A stretch of 12,187 bases of DNA from an uncultured Lachnospiraceae bacterium (lineage in GTDB: Bacteria; Bacillota; Clostridia; Lachnospirales; Lachnospiraceae): positions 1-12,187 of the forward strand of contig CALWEE010000030.1 in the NCBI GenBank assembly GCA_944376975.1, read 5' to 3'. Numbering within the stretch: the stretch's first letter is position 1; each line of letters starts with the position of its first letter. This document shows, in pieces, positions 5,124 through 10,976 of the stretch. Below the pieces are notes generated by a model. That model was not told the origin of the DNA. It saw only the letters and a program-made list of their open reading frames with translations, and did no database searches. The translations under genes and the position numbers were made by a program.

Positions 5124-6380
5124 CTAATGCCTGGCGGCCAGTTCCTTCATGATCTCTTTCCAGCTCACGTCCCGCTCGGCCATAAGGACCATCATATGGT
5201 ACAGGAAATCGCAGATCTCGTATTTCAGTTCATCCGTGTCCGGATTTTTGGCCGCGATCACGATCTCGGTCGCTTCCTCTCCCACTTTCTTCAGGATCTT
5301 ATCCAGTCCCTTATCGAAAAGATAATTGGTGTAGGAGCCTTCCTTGGGATGGAGCCGTCTTTCTTCGATGGTATCCATGACCTGCCCCAGTATGGTCGCC
5401 GGATTCGTGTCATCGTAAGCTTTTTTCATCAGATTGGTGTAAAAACAGCTTCGGTTGCCGGTATGGCAGGCCGCGCCGATCTGGGCGACTTTCGCCAGAA
5501 GGGTGTCTCTGTCGCAGTCGATCTCCATGGATTTGACATACTGGAAATGTCCGGAAGTTTCACCTTTTTTCCAGAGTGTCTGGCGGCTCCGGCTGAAATA
5601 GGTCATGCGGCCGCTGCGCACCGTCTCGTAAAAAGATTCCCGGTTCATGTAAGCCAGCATGAGCACCTCGCCGGTCTTGTAATCCTGGGTGATGACCGGT
5701 ATCAGGCCGTCGCTGCCGCATTTGAAGTCATCAAAAGAAAGGGCGCTTTCAAAACAGTTGACCTCCAGTCCTTTTTCCTTCAGTTCCGCTTTTAAAGACA
5801 TGATATCCATTTCACTGCCGTCCGTCCCCGAAAGCGGGCATATGCCGACCACGCCGTCCATGGACAGGGCTTCGGCGGCTTCATCCGCTGAGCCGAAGGT
5901 TTTGACCCAGATCACGTTGAGACGAAAATCGCGGAACATGTCCACGGCGGTTTTATTGGCGGAAACAACGCATCCGCCCGCTCCCGTGTCTTTGATGGCT
6001 CCGATGAGCGCCCGGCTGACCGGCTGCGTGTCCGGTATGCCGGCCCATATCTTATCTTTTCCGAAACGGGAGACCGCTTCTTTGAGCAGGCGGAAATCCT
6101 CCCGGGCCACAACGCCCATGACAACGCCGGCGGCTCCGGCGTAAAGGATCTTTTTCACGTCTTCCAGACGGGAATACCGTTGATAGACATACATGGGTAT
6201 ATCGGAACGGGAAGCCACGTTTTTGATCAGTTTGATCAGCCGGCCTTCCTGCTTTTCGCCCGCGGACATCCGATCCAGTATAAAGACGCCGTCCGCGCCT
6301 TCGTGTTCCATATGTATGATGTGGTCGGGACGGGTCTCCTCTCCGTCCAGACGTTCGCAAAGTATGATTTCTCTGACCAT
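5124..6380 (-). CDS. hisIE: HisF-like barrel pseudo-domain fused to HisI-HisE (PR-AMP cyclohydrolase / PR-ATP pyrophosphatase)
   Basis: A 418-residue protein, about twice the usual HisIE length of 200-215. Residues about 221-316 are HisI, which opens the ring of phosphoribosyl-AMP: the metal cluster D288, C289, D290, D292 (DCDRDTLL), C305 (ACHTG) and C312 (RSCFY) is intact. Residues about 328-418 are HisE, which hydrolyses phosphoribosyl-[17 protein letters not shown] with E368, E369, E372, then E388 and D391, is intact. Residues 1-220 align with the HisF barrel ([24 protein letters not shown], and [12 protein letters not shown] near the end of the barrel) but lack the catalytic aspartates and both phosphate loops. 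The start is the ATG at 6380, with AGAGGTG 7 nt upstream. An in-frame TTG at 6386 overlaps the hisA stop but sits only 1 nt from that site. It is the last gene of the his operon. Confidence 0.93.
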
Positions 6381-6382
6381 GT

Positions 6383-7108
6383 TCAAGCACCTCTTTCAAA
6401 TGTGGATACGGCTTCGGCAAGATGGATCTTGTTCGTATACAGCGCGGCTCCGAGTATGACGCCGTGGGCGTTCAGCTCCTGTATATCCCGGATATCCGAA
6501 AGAGAAGCGATGCCTCCGGATATGATCACGTCCATATGGGTCTTTTCTATAAATTCCCGGACGTCGTCCAGATGGGGGCCTCGGACCTCCTTGGCGCATA
6601 CCACGTCCGTATAGATCACCGTGCGTATGCCGGACAGTTCCGCCTGCTTTGCCAGGGTGATGACATTGAAATTGGTGATCTTTTCCCTGCCGTTGCTGAC
6701 GGCCATTCCCCGGTCCGCGTCAATGCCGACGAGGATCTTATCGGCTCCGAAGATACTGGCGGCTTCCTTGAGGAAACGGGGATCCTGGATCGCCTGGGTA
6801 CCGATGATGACCCGGGATACGCCCATATTGAGATAATTGTCGATATCTTTGATCGTGCGCAGTCCGCCCCCGTACTGGACCGGTATGGAAACCGTGTCCA
6901 CGATATCCTGGATCGTTTCGCCGTTGACGGGATAGCCCATGGACGCCGCGTCCAGGTCGATCAGATGGAGCATGGACGCCCCCTGCTCCTGCCAGTGCAG
7001 AGCCAGTTTTACCGGATCGTTGGTGATGATACTGTTCTGAGAATAATGCAGATCGTTGGGATTGACGGATCTGCCGTTTGAAATATGGATCGCCGCGTAT
7101 ATTTTCAT
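6383..7108 (-). CDS. hisA: HisA-like ProFAR isomerase family protein with altered active site
   Basis: A 241-residue TIM barrel of normal HisA length and clear HisA type: HLIDLDAA (48-55), [10 protein letters not shown] (61-70), QYGGGLR (78-84), VIIGTQAI (100-107), VGIDADRG (127-134), IYTD (165-168), [11 protein letters not shown] (196-206) and [12 protein letters not shown] (217-228). HisA normally isomerises ProFAR to PRFAR in histidine synthesis. Both phosphate-binding loops (GGG 80-82, SGG 197-199) and D130 are kept. The strand-1 catalytic aspartate (PAID in the family) is H8; the RDGT loop acid is A172 within CAKE; the SGW tryptophan is G140; and the VRLxQG loop is altered. The canonical reaction is therefore doubtful. 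AGGAGA lies 7 nt before the ATG. It follows hisB by 30 nt and ends 2 nt before the ATG of the HisF-like/HisIE fusion. Confidence 0.85.
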
Positions 7109-7138: not shown

Positions 7139-7735
7139 TTAACTGAGGGCGCCCTTTGTTGAAAGGACGTCGGTGATCCGCCCATCCGGCATGAGAGCCA
7201 TGTCCAGGGCTTTCGCGAAGCCTTTGAAGGCGGCTTCGATGATATGATGGTCATTGGACCCGGCAAGCTGCCGGATATGAAGGTTCATCCCGGCGCTGTA
7301 GGATACGGCGTAGAAAAATTCCCGGACCATTTGGGTGTCCATGCCGCCTACCCGCTCAGAGGAAAAGGTCGGCTCAAAGGCCAGATACGGACGGCCGGAA
7401 AGATCCAGCGCCGTAAGGATGAGGGCGTCATCCATGGGCAGGATACACTCCCCGAACCGACGGATGCCTTTTTTGTCGCCCGCCGCTTCGCGGATCGCCT
7501 CGCCCAGGACGATGCCGGTATCTTCAATGGTATGGTGACAGTCCACATGGATGTCGCCTTTTACGGTCACGTCCAGGTCGAACAGGCCATGGCGGGCAAA
7601 ACTGTTCAGCATATGGTCAAAAAACCCGATGCCGGTATCGACGGACGCTTTTCCACTGCCGTCCAGACCGATCCGAAGGCGGATATCGGTTTCCGATGTT
7701 TTTCTTGTTATTTCAGCGATGCGTTTGTCCAACAT
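7139..7735 (-). CDS. hisB: Imidazoleglycerol-phosphate dehydratase
   Basis: A 198-residue monofunctional IGPD without the histidinol-phosphatase domain found in enterobacterial HisB. It dehydrates imidazole glycerol phosphate to imidazole acetol phosphate in the cytoplasm. The manganese-binding repeats are intact: GIGFFDHML (35-43), CHHTIEDTGI (66-75), HxxxR near 153-155, and NDHHIIEAAFKGFAKAL (161-177), with the C-terminal STKGALS. Its ATG follows the hisD stop codon directly with no gap, and a GGGGGA ribosome binding site lies inside the end of hisD, so translation is coupled. Nothing in the protein looks degenerate, which implies that its substrate, the product of HisHF, is made somewhere in the cell. 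Confidence 0.97.
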   Translation of the reverse strand: MLDKRIAEITRKTSETDIRLRIGLDGSGKASVDTGIGFFDHMLNSFARHGLFDLDVTVKGDIHVDCHHTIEDTGIVLGEAIREAAGDKKGIRRFGECILPMDDALILTALDLSGRPYLAFEPTFSSERVGGMDTQMVREFFYAVSYSAGMNLHIRQLAGSNDHHIIEAAFKGFAKALDMALMPDGRITDVLSTKGALS

Positions 7736-9037
7736 CTATTCCCCCTGTTTTTCAAAACGTACTTTGATGGAATTGGCGTGGGCCGTCAGGGATTCCGCCT
7801 GAGCGAACCGGATGATATCGTCTTTTACAGGCGCGAGGGCCTCTTTGGAATAATAAATGATGCTTGATTTTTTTATAAAATCATCAACGGAAAGGGGCGA
7901 GAAAAACTTGGCCGTTCCGTTGGTGGGCAGGACATGGTTCGGGCCGGCGAAATAATCGCCCAGCGGTTCGGAACTATACGCGCCCATAAATATGGCTCCC
8001 GCGTTTCGGATGCGCGTCATGAGCTCAAAAGGATCCGCGGTCACGATCTCCAGATGTTCCGAAGCGATCTCGTTGGCGATATCCACCGCTTCATCCAGCG
8101 AATCGGCGATCAGGATATAACCATAATTGTCCAGGGATCTTTGAAGGATATCTTTCCGGGAAAGCCGTGAAACAAAACCGTCCACTTCCCGGCTGACTTT
8201 TTTCGCCAGCTTTTCGCTTGTCGTGACAAGGATGGCGCTGGCCAGTTCGTCGTGTTCCGCCTGGGACAGCAGATCCGCGGCCACATAACGGGGATTGGCG
8301 GTTTCGTCGGCGATGACGAGGATCTCGCTGGGCCCGGCGATGGAGTCGATGCTCACAAAGCCGTAGACCGCTTTTTTCGCCAGGGCCACAAAAATGTTGC
8401 CCGGTCCCACGATCTTGTCCACTTTCGGGACGCACGCCGTTCCGAAAGCCAGCGCGGCCACTGCCTGCGCTCCACCCACTTTGTAGATCCGGTCCGCTCC
8501 CGCGATCCTGGCGGCCGCCAGAGTACCCGGATTTATCTTTCCGTCTTTTCCCGGTGGAGTGACCATGATCACTTCTGAAACGCCGGCCACTTTGGCGGGA
8601 AGGATATTCATGAGCACCGATGAAGGATAGGCCGCTTTACCGCCCGGGACATATACGCCGACCCGAGATAAAGGCGTTACCTTCTGTCCCAGGATGGAAC
8701 CGTCCGGACGGGAGTCAAACCAGCTGTACTGACGCTGCTTTTCATGATAGGCGCGGATGTTTTCGGCCGCCCGGGTGATGACGCCCATCAACTCTTCCCC
8801 CACCGCGTCGCAGGCTTCGCGGATCTCGTCTTCCGTGACTTTAATGGTCTGGGGCGTCAGGTCATACCCGTCAAACTGCCGGGTATAGTCAAACAGAGCG
8901 GCGTCGCCTTCCCGGCGTACCCGGTCGATGATGGCGTTGACCGTCTGTGTATATTGTTCATAATTATTGGGGCTTCGTTTTAAAAGATCGTCCAGAAGCC
9001 CGGATATCGTATCTTTGGATATATGGATCATTCTCAT
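7736..9037 (-). CDS. hisD: Histidinol dehydrogenase
   Basis: A 433-residue protein of standard length that oxidises L-histidinol to histidine in two NAD-dependent steps, the last reactions of the pathway. The family signature is visible: YVPGGKAAYPSSVLMN (129-144), GGAQAVAALAFGT (188-200), KIVGPGNIFVALAKK (208-222) and DSIAGPSEILVIAD (231-244). The zinc ligands Q259, H262, D361 and H420 and the catalytic pair E327-H328 are all present. The first ATG at 9037 has GGGAGG 8 nt upstream; a second in-frame ATG two codons later is less well placed. The gene follows hisG after 50 nt, the widest gap in the operon, in which I see no terminator. Confidence 0.98.
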   Translation of the reverse strand: MRMIHISKDTISGLLDDLLKRSPNNYEQYTQTVNAIIDRVRREGDAALFDYTRQFDGYDLTPQTIKVTEDEIREACDAVGEELMGVITRAAENIRAYHEKQRQYSWFDSRPDGSILGQKVTPLSRVGVYVPGGKAAYPSSVLMNILPAKVAGVSEVIMVTPPGKDGKINPGTLAAARIAGADRIYKVGGAQAVAALAFGTACVPKVDKIVGPGNIFVALAKKAVYGFVSIDSIAGPSEILVIADETANPRYVAADLLSQAEHDELASAILVTTSEKLAKKVSREVDGFVSRLSRKDILQRSLDNYGYILIADSLDEAVDIANEIASEHLEIVTADPFELMTRIRNAGAIFMGAYSSEPLGDYFAGPNHVLPTNGTAKFFSPLSVDDFIKKSSIIYYSKEALAPVKDDIIRFAQAESLTAHANSIKVRFEKQGE

Positions 9038-9087
9038 GGTGTCCGCCTCCCTAGTTCATTCTAATATACCATATTTTCAGGCCGCCA

Positions 9088-9723
9088 TCAAATCACTTTT
9101 TTCAACGCGCCGAGCAGCTGCCCGATCCGCTCGTTTTCCATCTTCATGCTCACCTGATTGACAACGATACGGGCGGAAAGGGGACAGATCTCTTCCAGCA
9201 CCTTAAGCCCGTTCTCTTTTAACGTGGTCCCGGTCTCCACAATGTCCACGATCACTTCAGATAAGCCGACGATGGGAGCCAGTTCAACGGAGCCGTGAAG
9301 TTTGATGATCTCCACGGTCTGATGTTTTTTGTGATTAAAATAGTCTTTCGCGATGTTGGGATATTTGGACGCCACGCGGATGAGCTGCTGATGTTCCAGA
9401 TATTCTCTGGCGCTTTCCGGCCCGCATACGCACATGCTGCATTTGCCGAAGCCCAGATCCATGACCTCGTACAGCTTCCTGCCTTCTTCCAGTATCGTGT
9501 CTTTCCCGACCACGCCGATGTCCGCGGCGCCGTATTCCACATAGGTGGGAACGTCGGAAGCTTTGGAAAGGAACATGCGGATCTTCAGATCCTCGTTGGT
9601 AAATATGAGCTTCCGCGTATTTTTGTCTTTCATTTCTTCCATATTGACGCCGATCTTTTCCAGAAGCTCCAGCGTCTTATAGGCGAGCCGGCCTTTCGCA
9701 AGGGCAAATGTGAGATATCTCAT
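9088..9723 (-). CDS. hisG: ATP phosphoribosyltransferase catalytic subunit, short form
   Basis: A 211-residue short-form HisG, which condenses ATP with PRPP to start histidine synthesis. It opens with [10 protein letters not shown], contains [12 protein letters not shown] (64-75), and carries the PRPP-binding loop [14 protein letters not shown] (160-173). It lacks the C-terminal ACT-like histidine-binding domain of long-form HisG (about 290-300 residues), so it depends on HisZ for activity and feedback inhibition, and hisZ is indeed next to it. The ATG overlaps the hisZ stop in an ATGA arrangement, with AGGAGG 6 nt upstream, which favours matched synthesis of the two subunits. Confidence 0.97.
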
Positions 9724-10925
9724 GGCTGTCCTCCTTCTGTCACTTCGATCTTGGATGTGCTCCCATCCGGATTGACGCTCAATATTTCCCGGATATGGAA
9801 ACGTCTGGCGTAATCGGTGTAGTCCGCCGCTTTCATATCGGGCGCGAAAAGCGTCAGCTGTACGCTCCGCCCGTTGTCTCTGAGGATGGTCGCCAGCCGT
9901 ATGGCTTCCGGCCGGTTGGACGCCGGATAAAGGAGCAGGACGTCGGTTTCGGCCTGGGCGTCGGTCAGCTTCTGGCGGATCAGCGCGGTCAGGAGCTGAT
10001 CGACCCGAACAGCCAGACCCACCGCCGGGGCGGATTTACCGAACTTCTGCAAAAGGTCGTCATAGCGTCCGCCCTGGACCACTTCTTCCCCGGTGCCGTA
10101 CGTATAGCCGCGGAAGATGATGCCGGTGTAATAATCGTATTCCGTCAGCATGCCCAGGTCAAATGTGACGTACTTTTGAAGGCCGTACGCCCCCAGGATA
10201 TCATAAAGCGCCTTCAGCCGGGAAAGGGCCGAAAGGGCCGTGGGATTTTCCGTCAGTCCTTCCGCCTGGGCAAGGATGTCGCCGCTTCCGAAAAGCTTTG
10301 GAAGGCGGATGAGCGCCTCGTTGTCGGTCAGTTCTTCAACGCCGAAATAATTTTTGTTTTCAATGCGTTCCCGCAGTTTTTGCTCCGTTTCCGGGTCAAT
10401 GCCCGCTTCTTCGATGAGTCCTTTAAAAAAGCCCACATGACCCACATCGATCTGAAATTCGTTCAGGCCGGAAGCCCGGAGCATACATACGGCAAGGGCG
10501 GTCATCTCCGCGTCCGCGTCCACGCTCCTGTCGTTGATCAGTTCCGCGCCCATCTGGGTGGATTCCTTCATCCGGCCCTGAAGGCTGGAATTGTTGATGA
10601 ACACATTGCCTGTATAGGAAAAACGCATGGGAAACGTTTCGTCCTGAAAATATTTGCTGACGGCCCGCGCGATGGACGGGGTGATATCCGGCCGGAGCAC
10701 GAGCGTATTGCCCTCCCGGTCGAAAAATTTATACATCTGATTGGAAGGGACCGACTTGTCCTGGTTAAAGATGTCAAAAAACTCAAAAGAAGGCGTCTGG
10801 ATATCGTGGTAGCCGAACTGGCCCAGCACAGCCTTCAGCCGGGCCGTGAGCCGGTTCTTCCGCGCGCATTCGCTGTTGTAGATATCCCGGACGCCCTCCG
10901 GTGTATGTATCAGTCTTTCATTCAT
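9720..10925 (-). CDS. hisZ: ATP phosphoribosyltransferase regulatory subunit HisZ
   Basis: A 401-residue histidyl-tRNA-synthetase-like protein that assembles with short-form HisG and binds histidine for feedback control. It keeps the class II fold markers: TPEGVRDIY near the start, [22 protein letters not shown], and [28 protein letters not shown] in fragments across 240-300. The C-terminal about 90 residues form a small alpha/beta domain ([11 protein letters not shown] onward). HisZ rather than HisS is chosen because the gene heads a his operon, overlaps short-form hisG, and the HisRS histidine-binding signature (LVRGLDYY type) reads LTEYDYY. An in-frame start 15 codons further up exists, but that ATG lies within the operator dyad; AAAGGCGG positioned just before the ATG at 10925 fixes the start. 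Confidence 0.93.
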
Positions 10926-10946
10926 ATGTTTACCGCCTTTGCCTAC

Positions 10947-10976
10947 TTTATTCTGATAACGTATTATCAAGCTAAA
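10947..10976. promoter_or_regulatory. Candidate operator dyad of the histidine operon
   Basis: A 30-bp interrupted palindrome: TTTA-N3-TGATAA-N4-TTATCA-N3-TAAA, with both half-site pairs exact inverted copies. It begins almost at the predicted transcription start of the his promoter and ends before the hisZ ribosome binding site, the usual place for a repressor operator. Firmicutes his genes are known to be controlled by TrpR-family repressors (YerC/HisR) in some lineages; I cannot say whether this is that motif. As RNA it would form only a weak A/U stem, so DNA binding seems likelier. Confidence 0.6.

Follow-up and report, generated by a model that had tools for sequence, protein, structure and literature searches.

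A HisF-derived pseudo-barrel at the N-terminus of HisIE and its probable link to HisE

Introduction

The window analysed here, a 12,187-nucleotide stretch of contig CALWEE010000030.1 from a bacterium that appears to belong to the Lachnospiraceae, carries a histidine operon in which the HisI and HisE domains are preceded, in the same reading frame, by about 220 residues. We asked what this N-terminal domain is, how it came to stand in front of HisIE and why it has been kept.

Results

The locus and its domains

The features of the locus are as follows.

6380-5124, minus strand: open reading frame for HisIE with an N-terminal barrel, 418 aa; stop codon at 5124-5126
5721-6380, minus strand: HisF-derived (beta/alpha)8 pseudo-barrel, residues 1-220 of the 418-aa protein (Pfam His_biosynth, E 5e-9; AF2 model; nearest folds HisF; catalytic residues gone)
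6351-6353, minus strand: R10, aligned to catalytic D11 of HisF
6135-6170, minus strand: helix-3 patch, residues 71-82 (R71, E73, K76, K77, Y80, A81-G82), defined by conservation in HisE-bearing barrels
6060-6068, minus strand: R105-F106-G107 at the end of helix 4, defined by conservation in HisE-bearing barrels
6033-6035, minus strand: P116, aligned to catalytic D130 of HisF
5439-5660, minus strand: HisI domain (PRA-CH), intact (PF01502, 124.8 bits)
5127-5384, minus strand: HisE domain (PRA-PH), intact (PF01503, 79.6 bits)
6383-7108, minus strand: hisA of the operon, adjoining the barrel-HisIE gene upstream, with His in place of the strand-1 Asp
7139-10970, minus strand: hisB, hisD, hisG and hisZ, giving the gene order Z-G-D-B-A-[barrel]IE

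The 418-residue protein belongs to the HisIE family: it scored 270.5 bits against NCBIfam NF002747 (cut-off 187), and both PF01502 and PF01503 matched above their cut-offs. A separate hisF adjoins hisH elsewhere in the same genome (locus L008).

A HisF fold that has lost the HisF catalytic residues

The AF2 model of the N-terminal domain is a full eight-stranded barrel, and structure comparison gave HisF as its nearest fold at about 20% identity. The domain falls far short of the NCBIfam profiles for HisF (TIGR00735, 32.2 bits; cut-off 294.55) and HisA (TIGR00007, 21.3 bits; cut-off 228.95). An origin from HisA was rejected because both the structure and the tree described below favour HisF, in agreement with the original prediction that these residues form a HisF-type barrel. 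The same prediction had R10 or E9 and P116 in place of the catalytic Asp residues, with the phosphate loops lost and the loops after strands 5 and 6, RDGT included, trimmed away; alignment with HisF places R10 and P116 at the two Asp positions and shows the phosphate loops, the loop-5 hairpin and RDGT to be missing.

We then aligned 151 barrels with 38 free HisF proteins and 5 fused HisF domains, leaving out P0111 and removing identical rows. Both catalytic Asp residues were present in all 43 HisF sequences (38/38 free, 5/5 fused); D11 was retained in 8 of the 151 barrels, D130 in 38 and both in 6. Loop-5 positions were gaps in 149/151 barrels, the six barrels with both Asp equivalents included, and Asp was not among the six commonest residues of the barrels at the position of HisF D98; this position and the lost phosphate loops bear on binding of HisH and PRFAR. 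The least decayed barrels (L040, L025 and L029; best blast matches to HisF 131-148 bits) retain IIPCLDL, ..GG.R and IDLS and are without loop 5, RDGT and SGGAG. These comparisons suggest that the cyclase activity of the barrel has been lost.

Might the barrel have a new or remnant activity? The six barrels with both Asp equivalents speak for this, but the loss of loop 5 speaks against it, as does the outcome of a search for a conserved alternative active site: among 47 relatives, the catalytic-face loops after strands 1, 4, 5, 6, 7 and 8 are variable. We therefore rejected a conserved alternative active site, and regard catalytic activity of any kind as very improbable.

Distribution, selection and shortened barrels

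A PF01502 search of 150 genomes from the Lachnospiraceae-type family found HisI in 137. Among 148 family genomes in which a HisI locus was examined, 124 had the barrel, in 21 no barrel was visible before HisI or HisIE, and 3 had a HisA-HisI fusion; a contig end cuts four of these loci and hides the barrel in one of them (G533). In a protein search, 119 of the best 120 of 7991 scored proteins were 404-450 aa long and one was 630 aa. The 630-aa chain (P0121) joins a complete HisA, a shortened pseudo-barrel and HisIE, in that order. Among the carriers that have a name are Hungatella hathewayi, Enterocloster bolteae, Coprococcus catus, Lacrimispora and Blautia, and the family was assigned to Lachnospiraceae from such named loci. 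Among the matches listed from 391 genomes of the class, strong barrel-length fused frames were all in the Lachnospiraceae-type family, and other families matched as HisF.

Selection was measured in 13 independent pairs drawn from 122 frames, with the window computed separately against L010. Median dN/dS was 0.04 from strand 1 to helix 4 and 0.106 for strands 5-8 (12-13 pairs), compared with 0.054 for the linker, 0.051 for HisI and 0.018 for HisE; these medians retain the pair L067-L139, whose barrel halves had values of 0.40 and 0.93 and which is probably misaligned. The window barrel gave 0.137 (dS 1.13). The barrel is under purifying selection, and the expectation that it is kept rather than simply decaying was confirmed by these values far below 1. 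Neutral decay or an assembly artefact has a single point in its favour, the strong variation of the second half; given the low dN/dS and a spread through the family in many named isolates as well as MAGs, we rejected a local artefact or assembly error and consider the chance of either negligible. Taking fold, lost residues and selection together, the N-terminal domain is, as judged from sequence and predicted structure, a real and conserved HisF pseudoenzyme.

In seven genera the second half of the barrel is shortened, where shortened means that no more than 104 residues follow the motif, a limit of our own just above which lie barrels with 108, 108, 112, 112 and 112. The shortest are predicted to fold as half-barrels, and they keep the conserved patch described below; one half-barrel form is the 330-aa P0122.

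Probable origin by fusion

The barrel occupies an operon slot that in other genomes holds hisF or an active fused HisF. Fusions of HisF with HisI (L149-L152) or with HisI-HisE (the 470-aa L153) stand there in other Clostridia families, and in all five of these genomes the fused, active HisF is the only one. By comparison, a separate HisF was found in 15/15 barrel genomes checked, each match being at least 276 bits. In the tree, the split between HisF and HisA had a support of 100, and the 21 barrels clustered as a single group (SH-aLRT 96) on its HisF side. The group sits in an open fork with two f63 HisF proteins, one of them a trifunctional HisF-HisI-HisE protein; branches around the barrels are long and the exact sister is unsure. 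HisA-HisI and HisA-HisI-HisE fusions were also seen (L186-L189, L212, L213, L218), in other families and in the Lachnospiraceae-type family. Fusion of a His barrel ahead of HisI, from HisA or HisF and with or without HisE, has thus recurred in Clostridia.

The probable course is that an ancestral HisF was fused to HisI-HisE in a hisA-hisF-hisI-hisE slot, that the separate hisH-hisF pair came to supply HisF activity, and that the active site of the fused copy was lost.

The neighbouring HisA

The operon HisA of the window has His for the strand-1 catalytic Asp (AIHISNG) and is without RDG, and may perhaps be a second pseudo-barrel; against L010 its dN/dS is 0.081, indicating purifying selection. 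A eukaryote-type HisA was encoded elsewhere in 6/6 genomes whose operon HisA is altered at strand 1 (H or N) and in 3/3 genomes without an operon HisA. It was found in 0/9 genomes whose operon HisA is of the ordinary kind (two of them with strand 1 cut off) and in 0/3 HisA-HisI genomes. Genome G404 gave no PF00977 match of HisF strength, its best (99.3 bits) being a eukaryote-type HisA; the absence of HisF there may come from assembly loss.

A patch conserved where HisE is present

In 122 genomes with both the barrel and HisE, K76 (122/122), K77 (119/122), Y80 (121/122), F106 (122/122) and Arg or Lys at position 105 (122/122) are invariant or nearly so. By their spacing, E73, K76, K77 and Y80 would share one face of helix 3.

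In four genomes HisE is gone and the barrel is still there (G431, G563, G648 and G708), the last three having been chosen by ORF length (333, 362 and 389 aa) among the matches listed to the patchless G431 protein, which makes this a selection and not a census. HisI is still attached in these barrels, yet K76 (D/A/E/S), K77 (N/D/A/R) and Y80 (K/T/N/E) are replaced in 4/4, K77 once by Arg; R71 has become N/S/T/S and position 106 is Tyr in all four. D30, D36, D74, A81, G82, G107 and K197 are unchanged in 4/4. Loss of the patch amounts to only three changes on the tree, two of them on starred branches. One exception has HisE and Glu at K77 (G478), with an altered neighbouring motif. The pattern suggests that the patch contacts HisE, or something HisE needs.

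These data also bear on whether the barrel is an entrenched fold, a mere solubility or folding module that could not be removed without harm to the chain. Such a module would tolerate decay, as the faster evolution and repeated deletion of the second half indicate, and His barrel-HisI fusions recur in Clostridia; but a near-invariant, surface-type patch, lost specifically where HisE is missing though HisI remains attached, is not what this explanation leads one to expect, and we think it quite unlikely.

Loss of HisE and loss of the barrel

We asked whether HisE and the barrel disappear together. A genome-wide search for HisE (PF01503) in 15 family genomes with a short, barrel-less HisI found none (0/15), and the same search matched in 14/14 control genomes and 3/3 barrel genomes; it gave no match in G431 or in three HisA-HisI genomes. 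A HisG+HisD+HisB tree of 85 genomes required 11 changes each for HisE and for the barrel. Co-loss was seen in 7/7 independent pairs (p 0.016) with G431 coded as barrel-less and in 6 or 7 of 7 with G431 coded as barrel-present. With all four HisE-less barrels coded as present, it was seen in 4-6 of 6 pairs (p 0.03-0.125, median p 0.06), and the strict rule that barrel and HisE are always lost together was rejected on this ground. A second test, in which the patch was coded as HisE, gave 6/6, a figure that counts independent HisE changes only and is not added evidence. HisE loss and barrel loss coincide in most independent comparisons.

Because HisE-less barrels exist, retention of the barrel is not strictly dependent on HisE, and the claim becomes one of HisE loss followed by loss of the patch and the barrel rather than of simultaneous loss. 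Each HisE-less barrel lies near a relative without barrel or HisE: G398 (support 95), G498 and G429 (83 and 77). The simplest course of events is loss of HisE, then of the patch, then of the barrel. Three family genomes (G395, G418 and G462) have HisIE without the barrel, in H-A-F-IE operons.

Histidine loci with HisI in genomes lacking HisE altogether were L192-L196, L199-L203 and L222-L226. The HisE step of Desulfovibrio is reported to be carried out by a MazG-family protein (PMC5764234); by analogy, such a protein is a possible candidate to replace HisE in these genomes.

Discussion

A HisE-linked function of the barrel is probable. We put at roughly 0.7 the probability that this HisF pseudoenzyme is kept as a partner of HisE through the helix-3/helix-4 patch. 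It would work for HisE, the phosphoribosyl-ATP pyrophosphohydrolase, via R71, K76, K77, Y80, R105 and F106, the patch touching HisE or something HisE needs and thereby stabilising, positioning or regulating it; the barrel may act as scaffold, allosteric element or channelling partner. The original prediction of a partner for HisI and HisE thus stood for HisE, given co-loss and patch loss where HisE is absent, and was narrowed by dropping HisI. Counting against a HisE partner, HisIE in most bacteria works without such an N-terminal domain, and the three barrel-less HisIE genomes of the family (G395, G418 and G462) count against it too.

A different role for the patch would be docking or channelling, with HisG/HisZ or PR-ATP bound there and PR-ATP passed on to HisE. 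Release of the patch upon HisE loss is equally predicted, the patch residues are mostly basic, and the barrel gene sits in the hisZ-G-D-B operon. Proximity channelling of PRAMP is reported for A. baumannii HisIE in parts of PMC10242683, which we count in favour; all the same, we judge this platform unlikely.

To return to the HisE partner, a stronger and more tentative version, which we would not yet bet on, makes the dead barrel an obligate cofactor domain of HisE. Only the helix-3/helix-4 face would then be needed, and for that reason the (beta/alpha)8 barrel could have been cut repeatedly, in backward evolution, to a natural, functional HisF-N half-barrel.

If true, histidine biosynthesis, among the most thoroughly studied of pathways, would gain a widespread pseudoenzyme, from a gut family that is dominant and in which the gene is simply called HisIE. 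The case for an origin of TIM barrels from half-barrels was made on HisF, and half-barrels derived from HisF would here be available from nature; relatives with and without HisE would likewise offer a natural comparison that points to residues of interest.

Comparison with known systems

A search of the open-access literature found no paper on an N-terminal barrel domain of HisIE. Barrel-HisIE is not among the five his fusions given in the relevant passages of Fani et al. (PMC1963479), and the sections of a Roseburia genome paper on the same operon split, with hisF-hisH separate and hisE/I fused, do not mention the barrel (PMC7478625).

Compared with HisF of T. maritima (1thf), the window barrel is without both Asp residues, the phosphate loops, the loop-5 hairpin, RDGT and the Asp of position 98. 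HisI and HisE are intact here as in bifunctional HisIE (6j22/6j2l; HISN2, 7bgm), whereas the 220-residue barrel is an addition that goes unmarked under the name HisIE. The fused HisF-HisI(-HisE) proteins of other Clostridia (L149-L153) share the domain order and operon slot, but their HisF domain keeps both Asp residues (5/5) and is the sole HisF of the genome. Finally, unlike domain atrophy and the designed (beta/alpha)4 half-barrels as treated in parts of PMC4432964 (3tdm, HalfFLR), barrel shortening here is natural, repeated and enzyme-fused, and the conserved patch is kept.
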